A DNA stretch of 64,000 nucleotides, taken from positions 33,873,956 to 33,937,955 of the forward strand of contig CM049318.1 in NCBI GenBank assembly GCA_026874595.1. The letters run 5' to 3'. A model generated the notes under the pieces. That model had not been told where the DNA came from, ran no database searches, and saw only the letters and a list, made by a program, of their open reading frames with translations. Positions 12,696-60,231 of the stretch are shown here, in pieces (position 1 is the first letter of the stretch; the number at the start of each line of letters is the position of its first letter). The stretch is from Sipunculus nudus (Eukaryota > Annelida > Sipuncula > Golfingiida > Sipunculidae). Both the position numbers and the translations under genes were made by a program.

Positions 12696-13160
12696 AAACT
12701 AGATGTGTCGGAACTGCCTGGGGCAAAGTAGAAACATTTGTTAAATTTTGTAATTTTTTTTAAGTTCAGGAGGTGTCGTATGGTCAAAAGTAGGTAAACG
12801 GGGACGAAACGCGAACTCGATCTGTAACTGGTCATTATTTGGCAACACATACAAAATCAGGGTGGTATCTGCAGGCCATTGCGGAAAAAAAGTCCATACA
12901 TATGCATTTGTTCTATTTTTCATGAAATTTTCTATGTTCAGGAGCCGTAAAATGGTCAAAAGTAGGTCAACCGGGACGAAACGCGAACTCGATCTGTAAC
13001 TGGTCATTATCTGCCCACACACCAAAAATCAGGCCAATATCTGCAGGCATTGCGAAAAAAAAGTCCGTACAACTGTTTGATTTCGGAATGACGGAATGAC
13101 GGAAGGATGGACATGGGTAAAACTATATGCCCCAGCCACTTTGTGGCGGGGGCATAAAAA
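12696..13160 (+). mobile_element. P2 element, short copy
   Basis: Starts ACTAGATGTGTCGGAAC and ends GTGGCGGGGGCATAAAAA. It has about two tandem units of 180 bp (each with AGTAGGTCAACCGGGACGAA or a close variant) and a short GACGGAATGACGGA region before the 3' hairpin (ATGCCCC...GGGGGCAT). The same ends bound a longer copy at 51315-52402. Non-coding. Confidence 0.75.
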
Positions 13161-13572
13161 ATTATTAGTGACTATCCAAGGACCATAATCTATAAGCCTG
13201 CCGCCCAGTCTGTTCAGTCTTGCTAACTAATACTAGTATGCCTGGGCACGTGCAGTCACGGCTGTATAATTAAACCGTTAGTATATATATACACCTTGCT
13301 TCACAGTCTGATGCTGATTTAATGCTTATTATAAGACACCTGTCTGATAAAATTAATTTATGGCTGCATGTATCTAGAATTAGGTGAATTGTCCATTGGT
13401 TTATGATATAGAAAACAAGACCAAACTATCTACTTTACCAATGATAAATGTTATATGCATGATAAAACTGTAAGAAGCAAGGAAAGATTAAACATTTGCT
13501 TTGACTACTAAATTTAATTTCATTTGCAAGACTGTGATGAACTTGATTAAAACTTCAGATTGACAAAATCAG
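13161..13572. other. intronic-looking sequence, nothing recognised
   Basis: No repeat termini or conserved frame recognised between the P2 element and the candidate exon. Confidence 0.35.
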
Positions 13573-13694
13573 GGCCCAGCTGCATGTTAACACACGATAA
13601 CACAGCCATACATTGTCCAGACCAATTGTACAAAACGGCTGACTTGTCCCCATGCAGTCCTGGTGTGTGTCCAGTACAGCAGGATGCTGCCTGA
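13573..13694 (+). CDS. candidate terminal exon, small Cys-rich secreted peptide
   Basis: Open frame of 39 codons ending at TGA 13692-13694, entered at an AG acceptor (13571-13572) in the phase left by the signal-peptide exon at 11185. It contains four cysteines spaced C-x10-C-x12-C-x4-C, enough for two disulfides, in a mature part of about 40 residues. Against it: the pyrimidine tract is weak, a better-looking acceptor 14 nt upstream (13557-13558) would need a different donor, and no clear AATAAA follows. Peptide hormone, defence peptide or protease inhibitor are all possible; nothing identifies which. Confidence 0.35.
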
Positions 13695-14035
13695 CAGCTA
13701 AAGCCTGTTAAAGCCCTAGTATATACCAGGTATTCTGGTATAAGTATGATCTTATTTTGGTTTTCGTATACCATACCGGTACACCATATGTTATTGGAAA
13801 TGCTTAATCGTCATTTCGAGACCAAGTTAGGGGCACCACTGATATTTTGGGTGCCCCCTTGGCTACGGGCCTGGATTAAAATATTTTAAAATTTTATCTT
13901 TGATCTGTAACTTTATTGTAACTGTCAGAACCAGATAGCTTTGAAATCCTACTCTGTCCGGTAAATCATCTGTCAGAAAAAGGTAACTTTAAGCTTTCCT
14001 TAGCATTCACAATTTATGAATAATTGTATGAGATC

Positions 14036-14038
<3 letters not shown>

Positions 14039-14130
<92 letters not shown>
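14039..14130. repeat. compound (TA)n(GA)n microsatellite
   Basis: About 21 TA units run directly into about 25 GA units. Confidence 0.95.
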
Positions 14131-14132
<2 letters not shown>

Positions 14133-14797
14133 CAGACAGACTGACAGAGATGTATATACTGAGCGAGATATTGAGATTATGTATATAGAAATATGTATAA
14201 CACCGGTTTTGATAACACCGTTTCTGGCACAGGGCCAAGATAAATAGGAGCTTGTGTCCGGGTGTAATCAAACCAACTAGTGCGGATGTCACGTGTTTAA
14301 AATTTAGGCAGGATGCATCATGGAGCACCACGCTCTCTTTGGGCGGATTACAATTCTTTGCTCTGTGCGCGCCTTTTTGTTAGCGCCACGCCAGACAAAG
14401 CAGCTCTCTCTCTCCTCTCCTCCTCCTCTCTCTCTCCTTCTCAACCTCTCTTGTGCCACTGAAGGCGAAACTCGCCCTGGCAACTTTCATACTTAAACAG
14501 CTGTCTCCAAATCTTTCATTAACTTAACAATTAATATATGTGGCGTTCTGAACTGCTGCTTCACAATAGTCCCGGTCCCATACCGTTACCGTCCACCAGT
14601 GAAGCGTGCATCACGTTCAATGATTCGTGACAAAGGTCATACGGTTGGTCTTTATACTGAGCGCTACCGAGCCCTACTTTTTGTCGAGCTTTACCTAAAG
14701 TTTGAGGGCTTTCAGCGCCTCGAACTAGCCTAGCTCACATATATACACCGGGCGCGTTACGGGTTTTTGAACCCGGCGGCTTGCCGTGGATCGTCGA

Positions 14798-14870
14798 GAC
14801 CGTACGGTCATCGCGTGGTTTTTCTTCCCACGTTGTTTGCACTCACATAAACTGCGGCGACCGTACGGTG
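14798..14870. repeat. pair of GACCGTACGGT palindromes
   Basis: GACCGTACGGTC (14798-14809) is a perfect 12-bp palindrome. A second copy, GACCGTACGGTG, is at 14859-14870. Each is two head-to-head copies of the ACGGT pentamer that fills the arrays to the right. Confidence 0.8.
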
Positions 14871-14896
14871 ACTTCCGAAACTATAGGTTGGTTTAA

Positions 14897-15023
14897 GGCC
14901 CAGTCACACCGACCAAAGGTGTTTCTACGATGTTTTATGTACCCCGGTTCGTCCAGGTTTTCAAACCGGAAGAACCGGGACGAAATTTCTTAAAATCCAC
15001 CGTGGAGGTCTCGACGATCGTCA
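14897..15023. mobile_element. possible left terminus of the ACGGT element
   Basis: GGCCCAGTCACACC follows TTTAA. Such a GGCCCAGTCACAC start next to TTAA/TTTAA resembles ends of some invertebrate cut-and-paste transposons. No matching GGTGTGACTGGGCC was found on the right, so the far end is missing, diverged or elsewhere. Confidence 0.35.
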
Positions 15024-15307
15024 ACGGTCATCGTCTTCCCCGGTGTCAGTACGGTATTGCACGGTATACTCACGGTTTGTCCCGGTGGCCCTAGGGTGTC
15101 AGTTAGGTGACGCTAGGGTGCCCACGGTGTCATTACGGTTCGGCACGGTATGACTCACGGTGAAGCTGTTTGACCTACGGTTCTATACGGTGCCACTACG
15201 GTATTGCTACGGTACTTACGGTGCTGTTACGGTGGAGTTACGGTGGACTTGCGGTGGTCACGGTGCCACTAAGGTCTTACTACGGTGTTACTACGGTTTA
15301 TTACGGT
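15024..15307 (+). promoter_or_regulatory. helically phased ACGGT array, plus orientation
   Basis: ACGGT or a one- to two-base variant occurs at 15024, 15040, 15051, 15061, 15072, 15082, 15093, 15104, 15115, 15124, 15135, 15145, 15157, (15167 lost), 15177, 15187, 15198, 15209, 15218, 15229, 15240, 15251, 15260, 15271, 15282, 15293 and 15303. From 15124 to 15303 the mean step is 10.5 bp, one turn of B-DNA, while the sequence between pentamers varies. The array ends 16 bp before a TATA box. Confidence 0.8.
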
Positions 15308-15322
15308 AGACACGCCTTGGGC

Positions 15323-15330
15323 TATAAAAG
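15323..15330 (+). promoter_or_regulatory. TATA box TATAAAAG at the inner end of the left array
   Basis: Directed rightward into the central segment. The open frame at 15462 lies about 130 bp downstream. Confidence 0.55.
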
Positions 15331-15461
15331 AGCGGTAGCACCAGCATTCCAGCACAGTTAAAAAAAAACACGAGAAAAATAAGCCGCTTATCCATGTCCA
15401 CTCAGTGTTTATTGACATTTTTTATTTATTTATTTTTGACAGCCATTAGTAGGCTATTATT

Positions 15462-15692
15462 ATGCCAAAAATGCGAAAGAGAAAAGCTAAGCCAACCAAA
15501 ACGGTTACAGATGAGGAAGAGGACACACAGGGACCTGATGATTAATTAGGAGCTTCAACGTCAAAATCAGCAACTAGATCTGCTCCAGGCGCAGCCAGGG
15601 ACGTTGGTGATGATAAAGATAACGACGATCAAGAACCAGAACAAGATGATGATGATGAAACTGCTGCTCCTGCCAAAAAACAGGCAGAGTGA
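15462..15692 (+). pseudogene. central open frame, basic then acidic protein, one stop
   Basis: ATG opens a frame starting MPKMRKRKAKPTK followed by an acidic stretch. After 27 codons a TAA interrupts it, then the same frame continues for another 48 codons (Ser/Ala-rich, then Asp/Glu-rich, ending PAKKQAE) to TGA at 15690. The composition on both sides of the stop is alike, so one longer disordered protein broken by a nonsense change is likely. No family recognised. It lies downstream of the TATA box at 15323. Confidence 0.45.
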
Positions 15693-15710
15693 AGAAGGTG
15701 TCCATGAACA

Positions 15711-15827
15711 TTAGTGGTTCAATTGGTATTCGTTCAGTTGCAATTGCCATTGCATCATTTGCAATCTTTTCTTCTGGTCAAGTTGTTGCGACATCTCTGC
15801 AGAATACATGCGGAAGAATGAAAGCAT
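15711..15827 (-). CDS. short convergent open frame, Gln-rich
   Basis: Thirty-eight codons from ATG (15827) to TAA (15711), with a Gln/Leu-rich helix-like segment (QKKRLQMMQWQLQLNEYQL). It starts 14 bp inside the minus-strand TATAAATAG, so transcription from that box would start near or past this ATG. It could be the 5' part of a once longer frame. Function unknown; short length keeps confidence low. Confidence 0.3.
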   Translation of the reverse strand: MLSFFRMYSAEMSQQLDQKKRLQMMQWQLQLNEYQLNH

Positions 15828-15840
15828 TGAAAAATCACCC

Positions 15841-15849
15841 CTATTTATA
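15841..15849 (-). promoter_or_regulatory. TATA box TATAAATAG at the inner end of the right array
   Basis: On the minus strand, directed leftward into the central segment, mirroring the box at 15323. It is directly followed, moving outward, by the inverted ACGGT array. Confidence 0.5.
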
Positions 15850-15855
15850 TGCAAG

Positions 15856-16118
15856 ACCGTGGTAAACGTGGCAAAGCGTGATACCAAAGTGCTAGTACTT
15901 TCTCACTCTTGTGGCGCCGTAGTCCTGCGTAACGGCACCTTGATATCCGTAGCCAAAACGTTGCTCGAACGTGACTCCACCGTCAATTTCCGTGAAGAAC
16001 CGTCCCTTTACCGTGAGAAAACCTTGGTATACCGTGAAAAACCGTGGTTAGTCGTAGCTGAACCTTGGACGCCATGAATACTCCGTGACAGCACAGTAAA
16101 AGGACCGTGGAGAACCGT
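15856..16118 (-). promoter_or_regulatory. helically phased ACGGT array, minus orientation
   Basis: On the plus strand ACCGT or a close variant occurs at 15856, 15865, 15875, 15886, 15916, 15926, 15946, 15957, 15968, 15979, 15989, 15999, 16010, 16021, 16031, 16041, 16051, 16062, 16071, 16082, 16093, 16104 and 16114. The step stays at 9-11 bp except for gaps of whole turns. This is the mirror of the left array. Confidence 0.75.
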
Positions 16119-16145
16119 GAGGCCATTGAAAGCCTCAAAAAGTCA

Positions 16146-16425
16146 CCGGTTGTCCCGCAAATGCTACGGACATTCACAGTGGCGTCAAGGTGTTGTTACG
16201 GTGTATGCCGTGTCACTACGCTTTTTCTACGATTTGACTTAGGTTTATCCTGGTATGACCTTTCCCCACGGTGTACCTTGACATGTCCCGGAAATTTTAA
16301 ACCGTTTAAAACTTCCGCGACTCAATCCCGGTGCCTCACGGTTTTCCACAGTTCTTCAAGGTACTCTTACGGTTCTTTAAGGTATGGCTAGGGTTCTGCA
16401 CGGTTCTTCAAGGTGTTACTACAGT
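16146..16425 (+). repeat. third ACGGT array, plus orientation
   Basis: Sites (exact or variant) at 16146, 16166, 16176, 16187, 16198, 16207, 16218, 16229, 16240, 16250, 16268, 16328, 16338, 16348, 16358, 16369, 16380, 16389, 16400, 16411 and 16421, again about 10.5 bp apart but more degenerate. It points away from the centre. Confidence 0.65.
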
Positions 16426-16799
16426 TTTATTACTTTCAAATTAATTAGTTGAGTATAAGGATATTTATGAACAGCTGAAGATCAACTGCAGAGCACCAGG
16501 CCCTGGTTGATACCGGTACTCGAATTCGCGATCTGTGCTCTTAGGAGTCATGTGTGCTGTCGAGACCACGAAACCCGATAAAATGCAAAGTTAAACATAA
16601 GACGTCAACATATCAGTTTTTTTTAACTCCGAGCAATACATTTAAAAGATAATATTTTGCAAGTTACAAACGTAAATGCGCCATTGACTTGTTTGAAAAC
16701 GATTGAAATTTTATATCATAATTTTCAAGAAGTATAAATATTAAATATTATACCTTTCTACAGTTTGACTACATAACACAAAGACATAAGGGAACAGTA

Positions 16800-17165
16800 T
16801 TTCAGGAACAGGAAATCCTCGTTTTCTATAGCCTCAAAATGTCCTTTTTTCATTGCATATTCAAAAAATCCGCAATATTGTAGGGCGGTATCGCCTCCTA
16901 TACCCTCCCCATATACCTGTACCTGACCTTAATGAAACCATGGTTCATAATTGAAAAAAAAATCATATTTTCATACACAAAAATATATAACGTATAGTAT
17001 TAATAATATTATTAAAAATATGTGCATATACATGTATATATAACTGTTTTCATAGTACCCATACATGCATATCAGCCCCACTACCACCCCCACCCCCCTG
17101 TTTTAGCATTCTGGCTCCGCCACTGATCATGGCCCCCTCCCATCCTCAGTCCTGGCTACGCCCCT
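16800..17165. repeat. interspersed repeat, family with 5070-5330
   Basis: Shares CTCAAAATGTC, TTCATTGCATATTCAAAA and CTATACCCTCCCC in order with the copy at 5070, followed by C-runs and CTCCGCCACTGATC. Boundaries uncertain. Confidence 0.45.
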
Positions 17166-17928
17166 GAAGTACGAAAAAGAGCAGTGCCCTGGTAAAAAAA
17201 AAAGACTCAGAGAGTAACCTACTTTGAAATGGAGAGTGAAGTAAAAGAGTTAAATTAACGGCAATATACTCCATTTTTTATCACAGACTGAATACAGCGT
17301 CATATCGACCCTCTGGCATTACGACCAGATTATAATATACTAGCGCCAGAGTGTCATGACATCTATGTCTGAGGAACGCATTAATGAAGATGCAAATATT
17401 TTCGTCATTTCTGACAATGCTTCATGGCCTACAGGTAAACTGTCAATCAACATAAACCAGCCCAATCATTAGCATTTTTTTGTGTACTTTCTAATAATAC
17501 CAAACATGAGCGAGAAAAATTCCGTTTTAACCCAGCACATTAGTAAATCCTTTGGCGTGTTTGTTGAATTTATGACCGCATGAACACAAGCATGGCTCGC
17601 ACGGGTTACAGGACGCAGGCAGCTTGCAGCCGATACAGGAAATGACCCGTGTCCATAGAGACGGTGTTTCATTTTGGGTTGTGAGCTCACATGCATACTA
17701 TTGTGTAGATTTGTTATTTTTAGCATAATATTGAGATTATGGACCGGTTACTACGATATGAATGCAACCTGATGCAAGACCACTGCGATACATTCCTAGA
17801 TATAACTTGTATCACGACTCGAGTAGGCTTACCAGCCCAATTATCCGATTGCCTACTGAGTCGGGTTGTCACGGCTAAGACTGAATAGAGATGTGTTTCG
17901 TACTACATACCCGGTATGTATGTATTTA
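17166..17928. other. intergenic sequence without clear features
   Basis: No exon, RNA gene or repeat terminus could be supported. Confidence 0.4.
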
Positions 17929-17984
<56 letters not shown>

Positions 17985-17990
17985 TACACA
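17929..17990. repeat. palindromic (TG)n(TA)n(CA)n microsatellite
   Basis: TG repeats, then about 15 TA units, then CA repeats: the flanks are reverse complements, so the whole tract can fold into one hairpin. Confidence 0.9.
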
Positions 17991-18266
17991 TTTCAAAAGT
18001 CAGAAACATACATGGTGCACATCCCCCTGCATGAAGGTAAGGGCATTTTTCACATGTTGTGCCATATGCTTGTCATTTGCACACACAAAAAATGTGTAAT
18101 GTCCCATTCTTGTTCCAACGGGACTGTTGTAGCAGGAGAGACATGGTATATACCGGAATTCTTTCACTGAAAAAAGAGGGGAAAACAGAGTGCTGCCAAA
18201 AAAAAAGGGAAAAAAGGAGTTATAAGCATCATTTTCAGTATATATAAAAAAGTGAATCTTTTAAAA

Positions 18267-33246: not shown

Positions 33247-36200
33247 ACAAGTGACCCATGGGTCATGACGCTCATCTGACTGGGAAGAGATTTGCAAAAG
33301 GAAATTTTATCATCTGAATGGTAGTATATACAATTCAACTGAAGCATCAAACAGATTAACCAACAGGCTGAGATTTAGACTGTATTTATATATCTAAAAA
33401 ATAGAGAAAAAATGTGTAAACTTTAAAAACTAGAATACAGGTAACCGACAAGTGACTACATGTATCAGCCAAAATCAGAGTGGAATGGGTGAAGTGAGGC
33501 ATGGATTGAGTGGCAAGGGGAAATAGAGTGAGGTATGTTGCATATTAGCATGGATGTCTGCAGCCTTAATGTGTATGTAGGTTGTGCCACCTACCACAAA
33601 TCCAGAAAGCTGTCCAAGTTGTAAACACCTGCAAAATTTTAGGCAGAAAAGTCAAACAACTACATGTATATGAACGATTTTTGCCCATGGCAGACAAACA
33701 GACAAACACTGTGCAAAAATCTTTGCAGGTGACCCCTCCAGTTTTGTGTATGATAAAGACCTATGTGAGATCTAAACACATGCACAATTTTGGCCCAATC
33801 GGTCAAATGGTTCCTGAGATATGAGCTTGGATGTGTGCAGTGTTAACTAGAATGTAGGTGGCGCCACCTGTCATAAATCAAGAAAGCTGTCCATGATGTA
33901 TAAACCTGCAAAATTTTAGGCAGTTATGTCGAACCACTGCAGAGAAATGAGTGATTTTAGGCCACGGCAGACTAACAGACAGACGCTGTGCAAAAAAGGT
34001 TGCAGGTGGCGCCATCAGTTTTGCGTATGATAAAGAGCTATGTGAGATCTATACACATGCAAAATTTTGGCCCAATCGGTCAAACGGTTCCCGAGATATG
34101 AGCTTGGATGTCATCAGCGTGAATGTGAATGTAGGTGGCGCCCCGTCATAAAATCAAGAAAGCTATCCAGGATGTATAGGCATGACGAATTTCAGGTGAA
34201 TTAGTCAATTCACTGCAGAGATATGAGTGATTTTAACCCAAGGCAGATGAACAGATGGACACTGTGCAAACATGGTTACAGGTGGCGCCACCATTTTTGT
34301 GTATGTTACAGAGCTATCAAAGGGCTACATTTGTATAAATTTTATTTCCTGATCGGTCAAACGGTTCCAGAGATATGAGCTTGGATGTCATCAGTGTGAA
34401 CGTGAATGTAGGTGGCGCCAACTGTCATAAAATCAAGACAGCTATCCAGGATGTATACGCATGACAAATTTCAGGTGAATTAGTCAATTCACTGCAGAGA
34501 TATGAGTGATTTTAACCCAAGGCAGATGAACAGATGGACACTGTGCAAACATGGTTACAGGTGGAGCCACCATTTTTTGTGTATGTTGTAAAGCAATCCA
34601 AGGGCTACATTTGTATAAATTTTATTTCCTGATCGGTCAAACGGTTCCAGAGATATGAGGGTTTATATGTGGAAACAGACCCACAAATGGACACTGGATA
34701 GAGAGGAAAGGTCAGAGGTCAACGCAAACTGGTTAGGCACCAGTTCACATGTGACCCGATAATTGGTGTAAGTTTCAAAAAATTGGTCCATTTGTCTCCG
34801 AGGAGCTCTCTGGAAACGAACGCCACGGCGGCGGAGGAACCCGGTCAAAAACATAGTATCCACATAACTTCGTTTTGGCGGATACAAAAATACAGGTGGC
34901 TCCAGCAGTCTGCAGAAACTAATAAAAAAACTTAATGGTCAATATCTATGCAAAGAATTATGGTGATCTCTGCATTAGTTGTTCCAATACTTCAGCTTTT
35001 GTATCAAATTGTCCATTATTCTGAGGGATACTTCGGAGTCCTATAGCTTGAAGGATATGGGTAACAGAGACCTAATTTCAAGTTTCCACAGGCACTTTTC
35101 ATGGGCCTCCTTGCATGACAAGAATGAAGATTCTAGGTCCAGTTGTTGCGATTTGTACCCTGTTGACAGATAACCACATCTTTATAGGTCTCAAAAAAAG
35201 AGAAAAAATTCGTAAAAATTTAAAAAAAAATAGAGATGGCGCACCCAGTCTGCAGAAACTGATTGAACAGCTCATGATCAATATGTATGCTGAAAATCAT
35301 GACCATTAGTGTTGTAGTTATTGAGATAATGTATCAAATTTTCCATTATTCTGGGGGGGGGGGGGTATTTTGGAGCCATACAGCTTAAAGAATATGGGTA
35401 ACAGAGACCTAATTTCAGGTTTCCATGGAGACTTTTCATAGGTCTCCCTGTCTGTCAAGAATGAAATTCTTGGTCCAGTTTTTATTATTTGTGCCCTGTT
35501 AACAGATGTTCATATCTTTAAAGGTCTCAAAAATAGAGAAAAATTTCGTAAATAAAAAACGAACAAATACAGATGGTGCCACCAGTCTGCAGAAACTGAT
35601 GAAACACTCCATGATCAATATCCATGCAAACAATTATGGTTATCTCTGCATTAGTTGTTCAGATACTTTAGCTTTTGCATCAAATTTTCCATTATTCTGA
35701 GCTGTACTTTGGAGTGCCATAGCTCAAAGGATATGGGTAACAGAGACCAAATTTCAGGTTTCCATGGAGGCTTATCATGGGTCTCCCTGTGTGTAAAGAA
35801 TGAAGATTCTAGGTCCAGTCGTTACAATTTGTACCCTGTTGACAGATAACTACATCCTTAAAGGTCTCAAAAATAGAGAAAACAATTCGTAAAATTGAAA
35901 AAATACAGGTGGCGCCACCAGTCTGCAGAAACTGATGAAACATCTCATGATCAATATGTATGCCGAAAATCATGACCATCAGTGATGTAGTTAATGAGAT
36001 ATTGAAGTTTTTGTATGAAATTTTTGACTATTCTGGGGGGGTAATTTTGGGCCCCATAGCTCGAAGGATATGGGTAACAGAGACCTAATTATGGTTTCCA
36101 TAGAGACTTTTCATAGGTCTCTCAGTGTGTCGAAAATGAAGATTCTAGGTCCAGTCGTTACGATTTGTGCCACGCTAACAGATGACAGCATCCTCAAAGG

Positions 36201-36930
36201 TCTCAAAAATAGAAGAAAAAATCGTAAAAAATCAAACAATACAGGTGGCGCCACCAGTCTGCAGGAACTGATAGAACATCTCATGATCAATATGTATGCC
36301 AAAATCATGACCATCAGTGATGTAGTTATTGAGATATTGAAGTTTTTGTATGAAATTTTTGACTATTCTGGGGGGTACTTTGGGGCCCCATAGCTCGAAG
36401 GATATGGGTAACAGAGACCTAATTTCTGGTTTCCAAGGAGATTTTTCATAGACCACTGAGTGTGTCAAGAATTAAGATTCTAAGTCCAGTCTTTATGATT
36501 TGTGCCTTGTTAACAGATGTTCACATTTTTAAAAGTCTCAAAAATAGAGAAAAAAATTCGTAAAAAATCGAAAAATACAGGTGGCAACACCAGTCTGCAG
36601 GAAGTGATGAAACATCTCATGATCAATATGTATGCCATAAATCATGACCATCAGTCAAGTAGTTAATGAGATATTGAAGTTTTTGTATGAAATTTTTTAC
36701 TTTTCTGGGGGGTACTTTTGGGCCACATAGCTCAAAGGATATGGGTAACAGAGACCTATTTTCTGGTTTCCAAGGAGATTTTTTATGGACCTCTCAGAAT
36801 CCCAAGTTACAAACTTCTAGGTCCAACGGTTACGATTTGTGCCTGGTAAACGGACGGACAGACGGACGGACGACGGACAAAGAGTGATCGCTATAGCTCA
36901 GATGACTTTCAGTCAGCTGAGCTAAAAAAA
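33247..36930 (+). mobile_element. P1 element, type I, complete
   Basis: Starts ACAAGTGACCCATGGGTC. About four 280-bp units (33560-34660, with AAATCAAGAAAGCT and GGTCAAACGGTTCC), a spacer with a hairpin (34660-34890), six 335-345-bp units (about 34890-36880, marked by CAGTCTGCAGAAACTGAT), then GGACGGACAGACGGACGG and the 3' hairpin ending GCTGAGCTAAAAAAA. GGTGGCGCCACC recurs at unit junctions. In the 12-kb intron, antisense to the kinase gene. Confidence 0.8.
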
Positions 36931-53127: not shown

Positions 53128-54168
53128 ACTAGAATATCAGCAGAAGCTGACAAAAGCCCTCAGCCCAAAGAACAGTGTTTAGAGGTTGTAACAGTGACAA
53201 GTACTAAATATCTGTTCTCACATGGATGTATATCTGTACATGTCTCAGTTATAAATTTAAAATGGAGAGGTATGTACCATGACTCATAACAATCCATCAA
53301 ATGCTTCCTGAAAATAAGCTTCTAAGTTTTATTCTATTATAAGCTCTGTGACCTTGAAAAGCAGGTCAAGGTCACCCATCTTCGAAATTGACTGAGATTT
53401 TGTTGATATGCATCTTCACCAAAGAAATAAAATTCCTATTGTGAATCCTTTTAGAGATATCCTGCCCACAAGGCCAAAATTGAAAAATCCAAGAAAAATT
53501 CATTAAAAATCAGAAATTGCAGGTGGCGCCCCCAAACTTGTGCAGCAGTTACAGACCATCAGTCCCTATGACAATAGTAAGTATTGTGAAAATCCACCCA
53601 ATGGTTCCTGAGAAATAAGCTTCTAAATGTTTTTTCTATAATCAGCTCTAAAACGTAGAAAAAAAGGGTCAAGTTCACCCATCTTCGAACTTGACCAAGA
53701 TTTTGTCAATATACATCTTCACCGAAAAAATAAAATTCCTACGGTGAATCCTTTTGGAGATATCCCGCTCACAAGCCCAAAGTTGAAAAATCCGATAAAA
53801 ATTCATTAAAAATCAGAAATTGTAGGTGGCGCCACCAAACTTGTGTAGCAGGTACAGATTATCAGTCCCAATAATCATAGTAAGTTTTGTGAAAATCCAC
53901 CAAATGGTTCCTGAGTAATAAGCATCTAAGTGTTTTTCTATAATAAGCTCTAAAATGTAGAAAAATAGGTCAAGGTCACCCATCTTCGAACTTGACCGAG
54001 ATTTTGTCGATATACATCTTTACCCAGGAAATAAAATTCTGACGGTGAATCCTTTTCAAGATATCCCGCTCACAAGGTAAAAGTTAACGGACGCCGGACG
54101 GACGGACGGACGGACGGACAGCTTGGGTGACGACAATAGCCCATCAGCCTAAGGGCTGAGGGCTAAAA
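53128..54168 (+). mobile_element. P3 element, copy B
   Basis: Starts ACTAGAATATCAGCAGAAGC with GCCCTCAGCC. About three core units of 300 bp follow (TCAAGGTCACCCATCTTCG at 53366 and 53970), then CGGACGGACGGACGGACGG, CTTGGGTGACGACAATAGC and the hairpin CAGCCTAAGGGCTGAGGGCTA. Core units carry GGTGGCGCC(A/C)CC, a word also found in P1. Antisense to the kinase gene. Confidence 0.8.
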
Positions 54169-54937
54169 GTGTCACCTTGATAAAAATACAAACTGACATT
54201 TATAAATTCAAATTATTGGAATTAGCTGCATGTTCATGTATTTTATACAAACATATTAATCTGTGAATATATTAAAACCTTATGAACAACCAGTTCAGTG
54301 AAAGGTTAATTACTGATATTGTGCATATAAGAAATTCTAGTTAACACTCAAGGGTAAGACAAGCCATTAAATTCTGCAAAACGTAGGTCATGTAATTGTT
54401 CCATGCATTAGAATGTTAGCGTAGTGGCAACTCTGCACTATATGGAAACATACGGATATTCAGTAGAAAGCACTCTGTGTTGAGCTCTTCACACAGTCTT
54501 TATATGCACAAAGTGTTTTGTTTTGTTTGGGCTTAGTTTCTGGGGGCAAGGACAGGACAGGCTGGGATACACTGCTGCCAATCAGACTGCAATGCAATGC
54601 ACTACATGCTCTTGGATTGGCCGATCTGGTCAGCTGAGATGAAGTAAATATGGCTGCAACCAAGTGCTAGGTTTTGTTGAAAAGTGGGGAATGATTAGGT
54701 AGGCGAGCATCAGCATCTTATCACAGAGAGATGCTATGCCTTCTTTTGTTGCCAACAGGAATTACAACCACAAAAGAATTGGCAAGGTATTGTATTTTGC
54801 ATGTTGTTGACAAAGCACTATGTACAAGCAGTTGCATCATACATAAGTTGTGTATTACAGTGCCACCAGGTGCCAAAATACAACAATAACCATAAAATCT
54901 GGCAGCAGTCAGGCAACAATGTAATAGGCCACTTCCA
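54169..54937. other. kinase intron, unique sequence
   Basis: No kinase N-lobe exon was found on the minus strand. An open frame at 54460-54663 has no splice context. Confidence 0.4.
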
Positions 54938-55106
54938 TGCTAGCAAATAATCGAGATCATGAACTGGATCACTGTCCACATTAGGTCACTAATCTACATC
55001 TGTTTAGCCCACTGTAGTCTGCTTGAAATATGGTCGACAGTAGTTTGGTTAACTTATGTCCAGTTCACAGTAAACCAATGAGTACAGATAAATCAATTTC
55101 TAGTTT
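54938..55106. repeat. dispersed repeat shared with 3786-3950
   Basis: GCTAGCAAATAATCGAGATC and following sequence parallel the left copy. Diverged. Confidence 0.45.
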
Positions 55107-55114
55107 GCATAAGC

Positions 55115-55329
55115 CAAAAAAATAAAAGGTATGGTTCTCAGGCACCGCCCGCGTCAGTTTTAACCCCCCGCATCAAACAGTTTTATTTAGATTAACATCT
55201 TTCAAGAATATAAATTAATACAATTTTGATCAGATTACCTTTGAAATGTAGTGCTTTTACCTGTTTAGCAAAATAAATCTGTAATTTTCATGCTTTTCCC
55301 TGATCATATATTTTTATCGAAACATACAA
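55115..55329 (+). repeat. R330 repeat, left part, cut by a P1 insertion
   Basis: GGCACCGCCCGCGTCAGTTT through CGAAACATACAA is the reverse complement of most of 6300-6650. It stops where the P1 terminus ACAAGTGACCC begins and resumes at 60232. Confidence 0.7.
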
Positions 55330-56481
55330 ACAAGTGACCCATGGGTCATGAGGCTCAGCTGAATGGGAAGAGATTCGCAAAAAGGAAATTTTATCATCTG
55401 AATGGTAGTATATACCCATTCAACTGAAGCATCAAACAGATTAACCAACAGGCTGAGATTGTGTCTGTATTAATATATCTAAAAAAAAGAGAAAAAAAAA
55501 AAAAAATACAGGTGGCTCCACCAGTCTGCAGAAACTAATAAAAACACTTAATGGTCAATATCCATGCAAAGAAGCATGGTGGTCTCTGGATTAGTTGTTC
55601 AGATACTTCAGCATTTGTATCAAATTGTCCATTATCCTGAGGGATACTTATAGCTTGAGTCCTATAGCTTGAAGGATATGGGAAACAGAGACCTAATTTC
55701 AGGTTTCCACAGAAACATTTCATGGGCCTCCTTGCATGACAAGAATGAAGATTCTAGGTCCAGTTGTTACGATTTGTACCCTGTTGACAGATAACCTATT
55801 CTTTAAAGGTCTCAAAAATAGAGAAAAAAATTTGTAAAAATTTGAAAAAAAATAGAGGTGGCTCACCCAGTCTGCAGAAACTGATGGAACACCTCATGAT
55901 CAATATGTATGCCAAAGATCATGACCATCAGTGTTGTAGTTATTGAGATACTGCAGTTTTTGTATCAAATTTTTCATTATTATGGGGGGTATTTTGAAGC
56001 CATACAGCTTAAAGGATATGGGTAACAGAGACCTAATTTCAGGTTTCCATGGAGGCTTTTCATGGATCCCCCTGTTTGTCAAGAATGAAGATTCTAGGTC
56101 AAGTTGTTATGATTTGGGCCCTGTTCATATCTTTAAAGGACTCAAAAATAGAGAAAAAAATTCATAAAAAAAAGCTGAACAAATACAGGTGGTGCCACCA
56201 GTCTGCAGAAACTGATGAAACACTCCATGATCAATATCCATGCATACAATTATAGTTGTTCAGATACTTGTTTTGTATCAAATTTTCCATTATTCTAAAG
56301 CTTTACTTTGGAGCGCCATAGCTCAAAGGATATGGGTAACAGAGACCTAATTTCAGGTTTCCATGGAGACTTTTCATGGGTTTCCGTGTGTGTCAAGAAT
56401 GGAGATTCTAGGTCCAGTCATTACGATTTGTACCATTTTGACAGATAACTACATCCTTAAAGGTCTCCAAAATAGAGAAAA
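55330..56481 (+). mobile_element. P1 element, type I, 5' part of a head-to-tail pair
   Basis: Starts ACAAGTGACCCATGGGTC, lacks the 280-bp cores, and has about three 340-bp units (CAGTCTGCAGAAACT at 55523, 55871 and 56202). It stops inside a unit at AAAATAGAGAAAA, where a second P1 5' end begins (56482). Confidence 0.75.
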
Positions 56482-59400
56482 ACAAGTGACCCATGGGTCA
56501 TGACGCTCAGCTGACTGGGAAGAGATTCGCAAAAGGAAATTTTATCATCAGAATGGTAGTATATACCCATTCAACTGAAGCATCAAACAGATTAACCAAC
56601 AGGCCAAGATTTAGTCTGTATTTATATATCTAAAAAATAGAGAAAAATGTCTAAACTTTTAAAACTAGAATACGGGTAACCGACAAGTGACTACATGTAT
56701 CTGCCAAAATCGGATAGTGAGGCATGGATTGAGTGGCAAGGGGAAATAGAGTGAGGTATGTTGCATATTAGCATGGATGTCTGCAGCCTAAATGTGTATG
56801 TAGGTTGTGCCACCTACCACAAATCCAGAAAGCTGTCCAAGTTGTATACACCTGCAAAATTTTAGGCAGATAAGTCAAACCACTACATGTATATGAGCGA
56901 TTTTTGCCCATGGCAGACAAACAGACAAACACTGTGCAAAAATCTTTGCAGGTAACCCCTCCAGTTTTGTGTATGATAAAGACCTATGTGAGATCTAAAC
57001 ACATGCACAATTTTGGCCCAATCGGTCAAATGGTTCCTGCGATATGAGCTTGGATGTGTCCAGAGTTAACTAGAATGTAGGTGGCGCCACCTGTCATAAA
57101 ATCAAGAAAGCTGTCCACAATGTATAAACCTGCAAAATTTTAGGCAGTTATGTCGAACCACTACAGAGAAATGAGTAATTTTAGGCCACGGCAGACTAAC
57201 AGACAGACGCTGTGCAAACATTGTTACAGGTGGCGCCACCATTTTTTGTGTATGTTACAGAGCTATCAAAGGGCTACATTTGTATTAATTTTATTTCCTG
57301 ATCGGTCAAACGGTTCCCGAGATATAAGCTTGGATGTCATCAGCGTGAACGTGAACGTAGGTGGCGCCACCTGTCATAAAATCAAGAAAGCTATCCTGGA
57401 TGTATACACATGACGAATTTCAGGTGAATTAGTCAATTCACTGCAGAGATATGAGTGATTTTAACCCAAGGCAGATGAACAGATGGACACTGTGCAAACA
57501 TGGTTACAGGTGGCGCCACCATTTTTTGTGTATGTTATAAAGCAATCCAAGGGCTACATTTGTATCAATTTTATTTCCTGATCGGTCAAACGGTTCCGAG
57601 ATATGAGGGTTTATGAGTGGAAACAGACCCACAAATGGACACTGGATAGAGAGGAAAGGTCAGAGGTCAATGCAAATTGGTTAGGCACCAGTTCACATGT
57701 GACCCGATAATAGGTGTAAGTTTGGGAAAAATCGGTCCATTAGTCTCCAAGGAGCTCTCTGGAAACGAACGCCGCGGCGGCGGAGGAACTCGGTCAAAAA
57801 CATAGTATCCGCAAAACTTCATTTTGGTGGATACAAAAATACAGGCGGCTCCACCAGTCTGCAGAAACTAATAAAAACACTTAATGGTCAATATCCATGC
57901 AAAAAATCATGGTGATCTCTGCATTAGTTGTTCAGATACTTCAGTTTTTGTATCAAATTGTCCATTATTCTGAGGGATAATTTCGGAGTCCTATAGCTTG
58001 AAGGATATGGGTAACAGAGACCTAATTTCAAGTTTCCACAGGCACCTTTCATGGGCCTCCTTGCATGACAAGAATGAAGATTCTAGGTCCAGTTGTTGCG
58101 ATATGTACCCTGTTGACAGATAACCACATCTTTAAAGGTCTCAAAAAAAAGAAAAAAATTCGTAAAAATTTGAAAAAAATAGAGGTGGCACACCCAGTCT
58201 GCAGAAACTGATGGAACAGCTCATGATCAATATGTATGCCGAAAATCATGACCATCAGTGTTGTAGTTATTGAAATACTGCAGTTTTTGTATCAAATTTT
58301 CCATTATTCTGGGAGGGGGGGGGGGTATTTTGGACCCATACAGGTTAAAGAATATGGGTAACAGAGACCTAATTTCAAGTTTCCATGGAGACTTTTCATG
58401 GGTCTCCCTGTGTGTCAAGAATGGAGATTCTTGGTCCAGTTTTTATGATTTGTGCCCTGTTAACAGATGTTCATATCTTTAAAGGTCTCAAAAATACAGA
58501 AAAATTTCGTAAAAAAAAACGAACAAATACAGGTGGTGCCACCAGTCTGCAGAAACTTATGAAACACTCCATGATCAATATCCATGCAAACAAATATGGT
58601 TATCTCTGCATTAGTTGTTCAGTTACTTTAGCTTTTGTATCAAATTTTCCATTATTCTGAGCTGTACTTTGGAGTGCCATAGCTCAAAGGATATGGGTAA
58701 CAGAGACCAAATTTCAGGTTTCCATGGAGACTTATCATGGGTCTCCCTGTGTGTCAAGAACGAAGATTCTAGGTCCAGTTGTTACGATTTGTACCCTGTT
58801 GACAGATAACTACATCCTTAAAGGTCTCAAAAATGGAGAAAACAATTCGTGAACATTGAAAAATACAGGTGGCGCCACCAGTCTGCACAAACTGATGAAA
58901 CATCTCATGATCAATATGTATGTCGAAAATCATGACCATCAGTGATGTAGTTAATGAGATATTGAAGTTTTTGTATGAAATTTTTGACTATTCTGGGGGG
59001 TAATTTTGGGCCCCATAGCTCGAAGGATATGGGTAACAGAGACCTAATTTCTGGTTTCCATGGAGACTTTTCATAGGTCTCTCAGTGTGTCAAAAATGAA
59101 GATTCTAGGTCCAGTCGTTACGATTTGTGCCACGCTAACAGATGACAGCATCCTCAAAGGTCTCAAAAATAGAGTAAAAAATCGTAAAAAATCAAACAGT
59201 ACAGGTGGCGCCACCAGTCTGCAGGAACTGATCGAACATCTCATGATCAATATGTATGCCAAAAATGAAGACCATCAGTGATGTAGTTATTGAGATATTG
59301 AAGTTTTTGTATGAAATTTTTTACTATTCTGGGGGGTACTTTGGGGCCCCATAGCTCGAAGGATATGGGTAACAGAGACCTAATTTCAGGTTTCCATGGA

Positions 59401-60231
59401 GAATTATCATGGGTCTCCCTGTGTGTCAAGAACAAAGATTCTAGGTCCAGTCGTTACGATTTGTACCCTGTTGACAGATAACTACATCCTTAAAGGTCTC
59501 AAAAATGGAGAAAACAATTCGTGAACATTGAAAAATACAGGTGGCGCCACCAGTCTGCACAAACTGATGAAACATCTCATGATCAATATGTATGTCGAAA
59601 ATCATGACCATCAGTGATGTAGTTAATGAGATATTGAAGTTTTTGTATGAAATTTTTGACTATTCTGGGGGGTAATTTTGGGCCCCATAGCTCGAAGGAT
59701 ATGGGTAACAGAGACCTAATTTCTGGTTTCCATGGAGACTTTTTATAGGTCACTCACTGTGTCAAGAATGAAGATTCTAGGTCCAGTCTTTACGATTTGT
59801 GCCGTGTTAACAGTTGTTCACATTTTTAAAGGTCTCAAAAATAGAGAAAAAAATTCGTAAAAAATCTAAAAATACAGGTGGCGCCACCAGTCTGCAGGAA
59901 CTGATGGAACATCTCATGATAAATATGTATGCCAAAAATCATAACCATCAGTGATGTAGTTAATGAGATATTAAAGTTTTTGTATGAAATTTTTTACTAT
60001 TCTGGGGGGTACTTTGGGGCCCCATAGCTCAAAGGATATGGGTAACAGAGACCTAATCTCTGGTTTCCAAGGAGATTTTTCATGGACCTCTCAGAATGTA
60101 AAGTTACAAGATTCTAAGTCCAGCGGTTATGATTTGTGCCAGGTTAACGGACAGACAGACGGACAGACAGACAACGGACAAAGAGTGATCGCTATAGCTC
60201 AGCATTACTGAAAGTCAGCTGAGCTAAAAAT
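56482..60231 (+). mobile_element. P1 element, type I, complete
   Basis: Starts ACAAGTGACCCATGGGTC. It has 280-bp units (about 56780-57590), the hairpin spacer (57600-57840), seven 340-bp units (57842, 58187, 58530, 58868, 59207, 59539 and 59877), then GACAGACGGACAGACAGAC and the hairpin ending GCTGAGCTAAAAA. The right flank is R330 sequence. Two neighbouring 340-bp units (58868 and 59539) are almost identical, suggesting recent array expansion. Confidence 0.8.

Follow-up and report, generated by a model that had tools for sequence, protein, structure and literature searches.

PIF/Harbinger DNA transposons, exemplified by Harbinger3_DR of zebrafish and Ping, mPing and Pong of rice, have been described as carrying genes for a DDE transposase and for a Myb/SANT/MADF protein between inverted ends, and as generating 3-bp target duplications. 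The Myb-like protein of Harbinger3_DR is reported to bind a 9-bp subterminal motif (PMC9710019) or the inverted repeats (PMC2836001), and the two-protein mechanism of the superfamily has been called not thoroughly characterised (PMC9710019). Here we analyze a decayed copy of an element with the same set of components in the sipunculan Sipunculus nudus (assembly GCA_026874595.1, contig CM049318.1, positions 33,873,956 to 33,937,955 of the forward strand; this 64,000-nucleotide stretch is referred to below as the window). The element contains three long arrays of short ACG-core words, located at both promoters and at the ends and phased with the DNA helix. In this respect it differs from the described PIF/Harbinger elements, for which the available portions of the cited accounts mention no such arrays; likewise, no helix-phased arrays in Harbinger elements are evident from the titles and abstract openings of the open-licence PMC papers listed in literature searches. 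We consider the probable explanation to be a two-gene PIF/Harbinger relic in which the words, about one per helical turn upstream of the TATA boxes, are read by the MADF protein of the element itself.

Partial parallels exist outside the superfamily. The second protein of the maize Spm/En element (CACTA, another superfamily), TnpA, has a role at the promoter and recognizes 12-bp sites that are irregularly spaced. It binds multiple sites inside the inverted repeats and is thought to unite the ends (PMC9921582). Maize Ac/Ds, which belongs to yet another superfamily (hAT), similarly contains many short subterminal words (AAACGG) that are bound cooperatively, but the binder is the transposase itself, and the available part of the account does not state helical phasing (PMC3260210). 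Among MADF proteins, the fish ADF-1L, which has been domesticated from PIF/Harbinger, was found by chromatin immunoprecipitation to bind the promoter region of its own gene, which contains sequence of a terminal inverted repeat; unlike the protein considered here, it is the product of a host gene, and its authors, in the part of the report available, found no specific motif (PMC11893794).

Three word arrays in one element

Outside the 14-17 kb region of the window, ACGGT occurs 0-3 times and ACCGT 0-2 times per kb, whereas the 15-kb bin contains 20 ACGGT words. The left array (15024-15312) includes 19 exact ACGGT words, and 26 if one mismatch is allowed (the means for dinucleotide shuffles are 1.7 and 11.1); the inverted array (15900-16140) includes seven exact ACCGT words and 17 with at most one mismatch, and the right array (16170-16432) five and 17, respectively. 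The first-pass annotation, made from the sequence alone, had counted 27, 23 and 20 sites, numbers that are roughly right solely when degenerate words are included. Its main observation, that the spacing follows the helical repeat, is borne out: with up to one mismatch, the periodogram maxima are at 10.50, 10.45 and 10.10 bp for the left, inverted and right arrays, and the power was never matched by random placement of equal numbers of sites (2000 trials per array). For the right array, the exact words only (n=5) give a maximum at 7.75 bp, so that its near-10-bp period depends on degenerate words; it includes a regular run with a step of 10.35 bp (16328-16425). The average step of 10.5 bp that had been proposed for 15124-15303 is reproduced by the fit to the left core (15124-15307, 17 sites), with a step of 10.50 bp and a residual standard deviation (SD) of 0.53 bp. 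We use this core result only: when the entire left array is included, the fit deteriorates, because one 16-bp step was rounded to two turns, and a weak site, 15104, was placed by eye.

The spacers of the left array are nearly free to change, as had also been noted, with 2.2 bits out of a possible 20 over 10 flanking positions. Across the sets examined in the family of the window copy (hereafter family 1), the array spacers retain 0.4-3.7 bits while the words are still present. A simple satellite, in which the whole unit is conserved along the array, is ruled out for family 1 by the left-array spacers; the sister element L053 is an apparent exception (see below).

The nature of the element follows from its relatives in the genome (1.43 Gb in 153 contigs). 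A search with the left array yielded at least 28 matches, the first 22 of which show 83-100% identity and cover most of the array, and a search with the right array at least 30, the own copy being included in both cases; 20 fetched copies form the comparison set for family 1. Seven of these (L010, L011, L013, L014, L017, L024 and L027) retain a middle part of 3.3-4.2 kb in an element of ~5 kb. In the three copies for which open reading frames were read (L010, L011 and L013), this part encodes a transposase and, near its opposite end and in the reverse orientation, a MADF protein; in full-length copies the two genes face each other. The 407-amino-acid protein of L010 matches DDE_Tnp_4 (PF13359, E 1.9e-29, 102.8 bits, cutoff 24.8), and the MADF protein of L013 matches MADF_DNA_bdg (PF10545, E 2.6e-7, 31.3 bits, cutoff 22). 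For L010 and L011, the corresponding MADF pieces produced no match in the Pfam search. When the C-terminal portion of the protein was screened for BESS and other known domains, there was one weak match below the cutoff in L011 and none in L059, and a piece of L060 gave one weak match in the search for known domains. Assignment to hAT (Ac/Ds) or CACTA (Spm) is ruled out, the Pfam matches of the 407-amino-acid protein being solely DDE_Tnp_4 and Plant_tran. The inverted ends, GGCCCCAGTCACACC (5') and GGTGTGACTGGGGTC (3'), differ from each other at one position, and identical TTA, TAA or ATA triplets flank 8 of the 12 copies inspected by eye (three of the others have differing flanks and one lacks its 5' end). 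Judging by these sequence features, namely DDE_Tnp_4 and MADF genes, inverted ends and 3-bp duplications, the element is a PIF/Harbinger DNA transposon. The window copy lacks the middle part and the last ~39 bp of its relatives, with the 3' inverted repeat, and hence is a non-autonomous relic.

Reading inward from the end on the MADF side, the inverted repeat is followed by the ACGGT lattice, the TATA box and the gene, with TATAAA lying 20 bp past the point where the last ACGGT word begins. The transposase side is the mirror image of this arrangement, supplemented with an outer lattice in which the words are directed at the end; in L011, 11 bp separate the nearest ACG word from the TATA box, and the gene begins with a small exon followed by a putative GT-AG intron (read by eye). 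The same succession of lattice, TATA box and gene on both sides implies that the left and inverted arrays are two promoter regions. The three arrays are parts of one transposon, the right one being the subterminal 3' part. This amends the first-pass reading, in that the arrays lie close to promoters in addition to their subterminal location. The features of the window copy are listed in Table 1.

Table 1. Features of the PIF/Harbinger relic in the window
Feature	Position	Strand	Basis or detail
Decayed, internally deleted PIF/Harbinger copy (family 1)	14893..16427	+	blastn of window 13001-18000 against 20 copies
5' end: TTA (likely target duplication), then terminal inverted repeat AGGCCCAGTCACACC	14893..14910	+	aligned copy ends
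Left ACGGT lattice, upstream of MADF gene	15024..15307	+	19 exact words, period 10.50
TATAAA, putative TATA box of MADF gene	15323..15328	+	sequence; kept in most aligned copies
Start of MADF-protein gene, early stop in window copy	15462..15545	+	longer frame at matching place in L010, L011, L013
Internal deletion junction	15715..15716		3.3-4.2 kb found there in 7 of 20 fetched copies
Putative TATA box of transposase gene, TATAAATA on minus strand	15842..15849	-	matching place in L011, L010
Inverted array: ACGGT lattice directed at transposase gene	15856..16118	-	period 10.45, at most one mismatch
Right array: outer lattice of 3' end, words mostly degenerate, directed at 3' end	16176..16425	+	period 10.10, at most one mismatch
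AT-cored imperfect palindrome within right array	16285..16321		matching place in L011

The palindrome of L011, 154-191 bp from the end on the transposase side, has arms of 18 and a score of 15, against a shuffle maximum of 9. Of the 16 ends scanned, five (family 1, L033, L034, L038 and L031) have similar AT-cored palindromes at a distance of ~140-190 bp from the terminus, and these exceed the shuffle maximum only in family 1 and L038; in family 1, the palindrome lies between the outer and inner lattices.

Sister families: shared period, different words

A genome search with the transposase returned at least 108 matches (102 of 819 candidates scored), and several of the copies carry stops. We took the 5' regions of 30 sisters, grouped by hand from blastn into about 15 families. 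In 28 of these, the match starts at residue 22-29, near the beginning of exon 2; L035 and L036 match only from residues 62 and 95, so that the stretch may miss the promoter and these two are not clean negatives. In these segments, which contain transposase exon 1 and the intron, the best period of repeated 4-mers is 10-11 bp for 23 of the 30 sisters; among 65 segments of the window that served as controls, this applies to 12. The period is stronger in the sisters than in the controls (Mann-Whitney p=1.3e-8; p=5.1e-6 on the 15 family means), the 95th percentile of the controls being exceeded by 16 of the 30 sisters and by 8 of the 15 family means. The family median is within 10-11 bp for 13 of the 15 families; L031/L032, which would reach this range only by averaging 12.7 and 7.8, are left out of this count. 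With the period fixed at 10.5 bp, 15 of the 23 promoters tested contain a phased 4-mer that exceeds the shuffles (P<0.05, uncorrected), and the remaining eight do not. A TATA-like box is found in the expected stretch in 21 of the 30 sisters.

For four sisters (51-58% transposase identity), the other end was fetched as well, and each has a MADF-like frame there, preceded by a phased lattice. The frame of L062 scores above the MADF cutoff (31.2 bits, E 2.9e-7), and those of L059 (E 4.8e-4), L061 (5.1e-4) and L060 (0.043) below it. The word is ACGGT in family 1 and L030, ACGAC/ACGAT (ACGAY) in L034, ACGTT/ACGTC (ACGTY) in L037, and ACGCT in L033. Thus, three of the four sister families use a word other than that of family 1, and the 10.5-bp phase is kept in all four. 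Both ends of an element prefer one word, the true pairing of ends being the best of 120 permutations. In the phase test of ten ends, every end has at least one strand at 0/300 shuffles, and 17 of the 20 end-strands are at P<=0.02, with three that are not; the family words were chosen after the data were seen, a weakness that does not apply to the word-free 4-mer test. Of 32 three-letter words examined over these ends, 28 have their maximum at 10-11 bp. Exact words in both orientations occur at eight of the ten ends, and in all eight the end-directed words are nearer the end (p<0.05 in four).

Other words include ACGGA in L051 and CACGTT in L049. In L053 (~780-1341), where other families have degenerate lattices, there is a nearly clean 11-bp tandem unit resembling CCGGTGTTGTC (by eye), possibly a young stage of a lattice array. 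L029 (~1-850) has an apparent MADF-like frame that precedes the transposase and is read from the opposite strand, the two being separated by inverted-repeat-like sequence (by eye); perhaps these are two adjacent elements.

Slippage, DNA shape or a protein reader

The identity of the element, the arrays at promoters and ends, the 10.5-bp phase, the conservation of this phase with other words in the sisters, and the use of one word per element are observed directly; that the words are read by the MADF protein of the element is inferred. Several observations weigh against this reading. Between copies of family 1, words and spacers have diverged to a similar extent (4.3%, 116/2675 letters, vs 5.2%, 181/3489; Fisher p=0.13), so that selection on the words within the family lacks significant support. 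Furthermore, nine indels in the arrays exceed 5 bp, and six of these measure 10, 11 or 22 bp, a hallmark of slippage. The two ends of an element resemble each other in the spacers beyond the words in four of five families (0/60 shuffles), which goes against the simplest co-evolution account and suggests that a word may spread by exchange between ends instead of selection; between family 1 and L030, residual similarity is seen in two of four comparisons (0/60 shuffles). In addition, a clear lattice is missing in some families in the 4-mer test (L031/L032), the offset between lattice and TATA box varies among elements, and the words of five families have the ACG (or CG) core in common.

The indels, the similar divergence of words and spacers, the shared end spacers and the clean unit of L053 are all compatible with degenerate minisatellites, i.e., a 10-11-bp unit that spread by slippage and then mutated, the period being the length of the unit and the phase not being selected. 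We nevertheless regard this scenario as unlikely. For 155 ACG sites arranged in 16 chains, the residual SD from an even lattice is 0.51 bp vs 0.67 for permuted steps (P=0.0007; the chains were constructed with near-10.5 steps, a limit that applies equally to the permuted steps). For the left core of the window alone P=0.007, and the inverted and right arrays taken singly are not significant (P 0.13 and 0.27). The steps compensate, the phase being held better than independent steps permit; under independent slippage of the units, it would be expected to drift. A minisatellite origin also fits poorly with the low information content of family 1 spacers given the persistence of the words, with the equal pitch of different words across families, and with the direction of the arrays toward the promoter in both genes. 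The comparison of genome copies and spacers proposed in the first-pass annotation is split: the phase holds, but family 1 spacers are conserved by descent nearly like the words, and L053 looks satellite-like.

The shared ACG core keeps DNA mechanics, or curvature, among the candidates: a CG step at each turn could bend the DNA or fix a nucleosome, opening promoters or joining ends without any word-reading protein. The period is indeed that of the helical repeat, and nucleosome effects of internal sequence have been proposed for mPing (PMC9921582). Mechanics, however, needs neither a private word for each family nor one word at both ends, nor does it require the orientation that the words have, which makes this explanation improbable.

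We also see little likelihood that the reader of the words is the transposase, as in Ac, or a host factor, considering that the studied PIF/Harbinger transposases are described as having no obvious binding domain, DNA being bound by the Myb-like protein (PMC2836001, PMC9710019), and that a single host factor cannot account for different words among families of one genome. The MADF protein, rather than the transposase, would thus be the likeliest word binder. Accordingly, the earlier suggestion that one face of the helix presents the sites to a binder encoded by the element gains support with respect to the phase, which is held better than independent steps permit and persists under a different word in three of four sister families, but less so with respect to a transposase, one of the binders it named as examples, so that the interpretation as a whole is partly supported.

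Some further observations concern the surroundings of the copies. In the 300 bp 5' of the insertions (17 family 1 copies), ACGGT/ACCGT occurs 1.41 times vs 0.35 per 300 bp further away, with at least one word in 11 of the 17 flanks, and CpG 14.5 vs 8.7 times; perhaps the element inserts into similar sequence. The left flank in the window from 14728 (14728-14893) matches the left flank of L016, and 14758-14878 matches the right flank of L018, which points to a common repeat or a preferred target. In L020 (4690-6500), the middle part is tandemly triplicated (window 15503-15669 and 15771-16182 each match three times). Elsewhere in the window, 33542-36783 and 53291-60148 are large tandem arrays with units of ~277-336 bp carrying GGTGGCGCCACC.

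A proposed helix-locked track for a MADF protein

We propose that the MADF protein would read the word through family-specific contacts beyond ACG, with neighboring molecules stacked head-to-tail on successive major grooves, a mode of binding reported for the DNA-binding domain of fission-yeast Sap1. The latter is a host replication protein that aligns structurally with the MADF protein at ~10% identity, with no sequence match. The words by the TATA boxes would set the expression of both genes, i.e., mediate autoregulation, and those closer to the ends might help join the ends and recruit the transposase. The arrays would lengthen and shorten by 10-11-bp slippage, after which the spacers would drift, with the word and the phase kept.

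More tentatively, and with somewhat less than even confidence, we hypothesize an animal PIF/Harbinger lineage in which both promoters and both ends are equipped with a helix-locked track. The geometry of this track would be what is conserved, whereas each family would have a private word that is recognized by the MADF protein of that family. A head-to-tail filament on this track would set expression and build the transposition complex, and joint change of protein and word would keep the families apart.

Although transposons are known to have subterminal binding sites, regulatory DNA that keeps its spacing while exchanging the word would be unusual. In the families of this genome, words and MADF proteins come in natural pairs, from which the MADF recognition code could be read directly. 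For PIF/Harbinger elements, they also provide a concrete model, open to testing, in which the second protein could both mark the ends and control dose.
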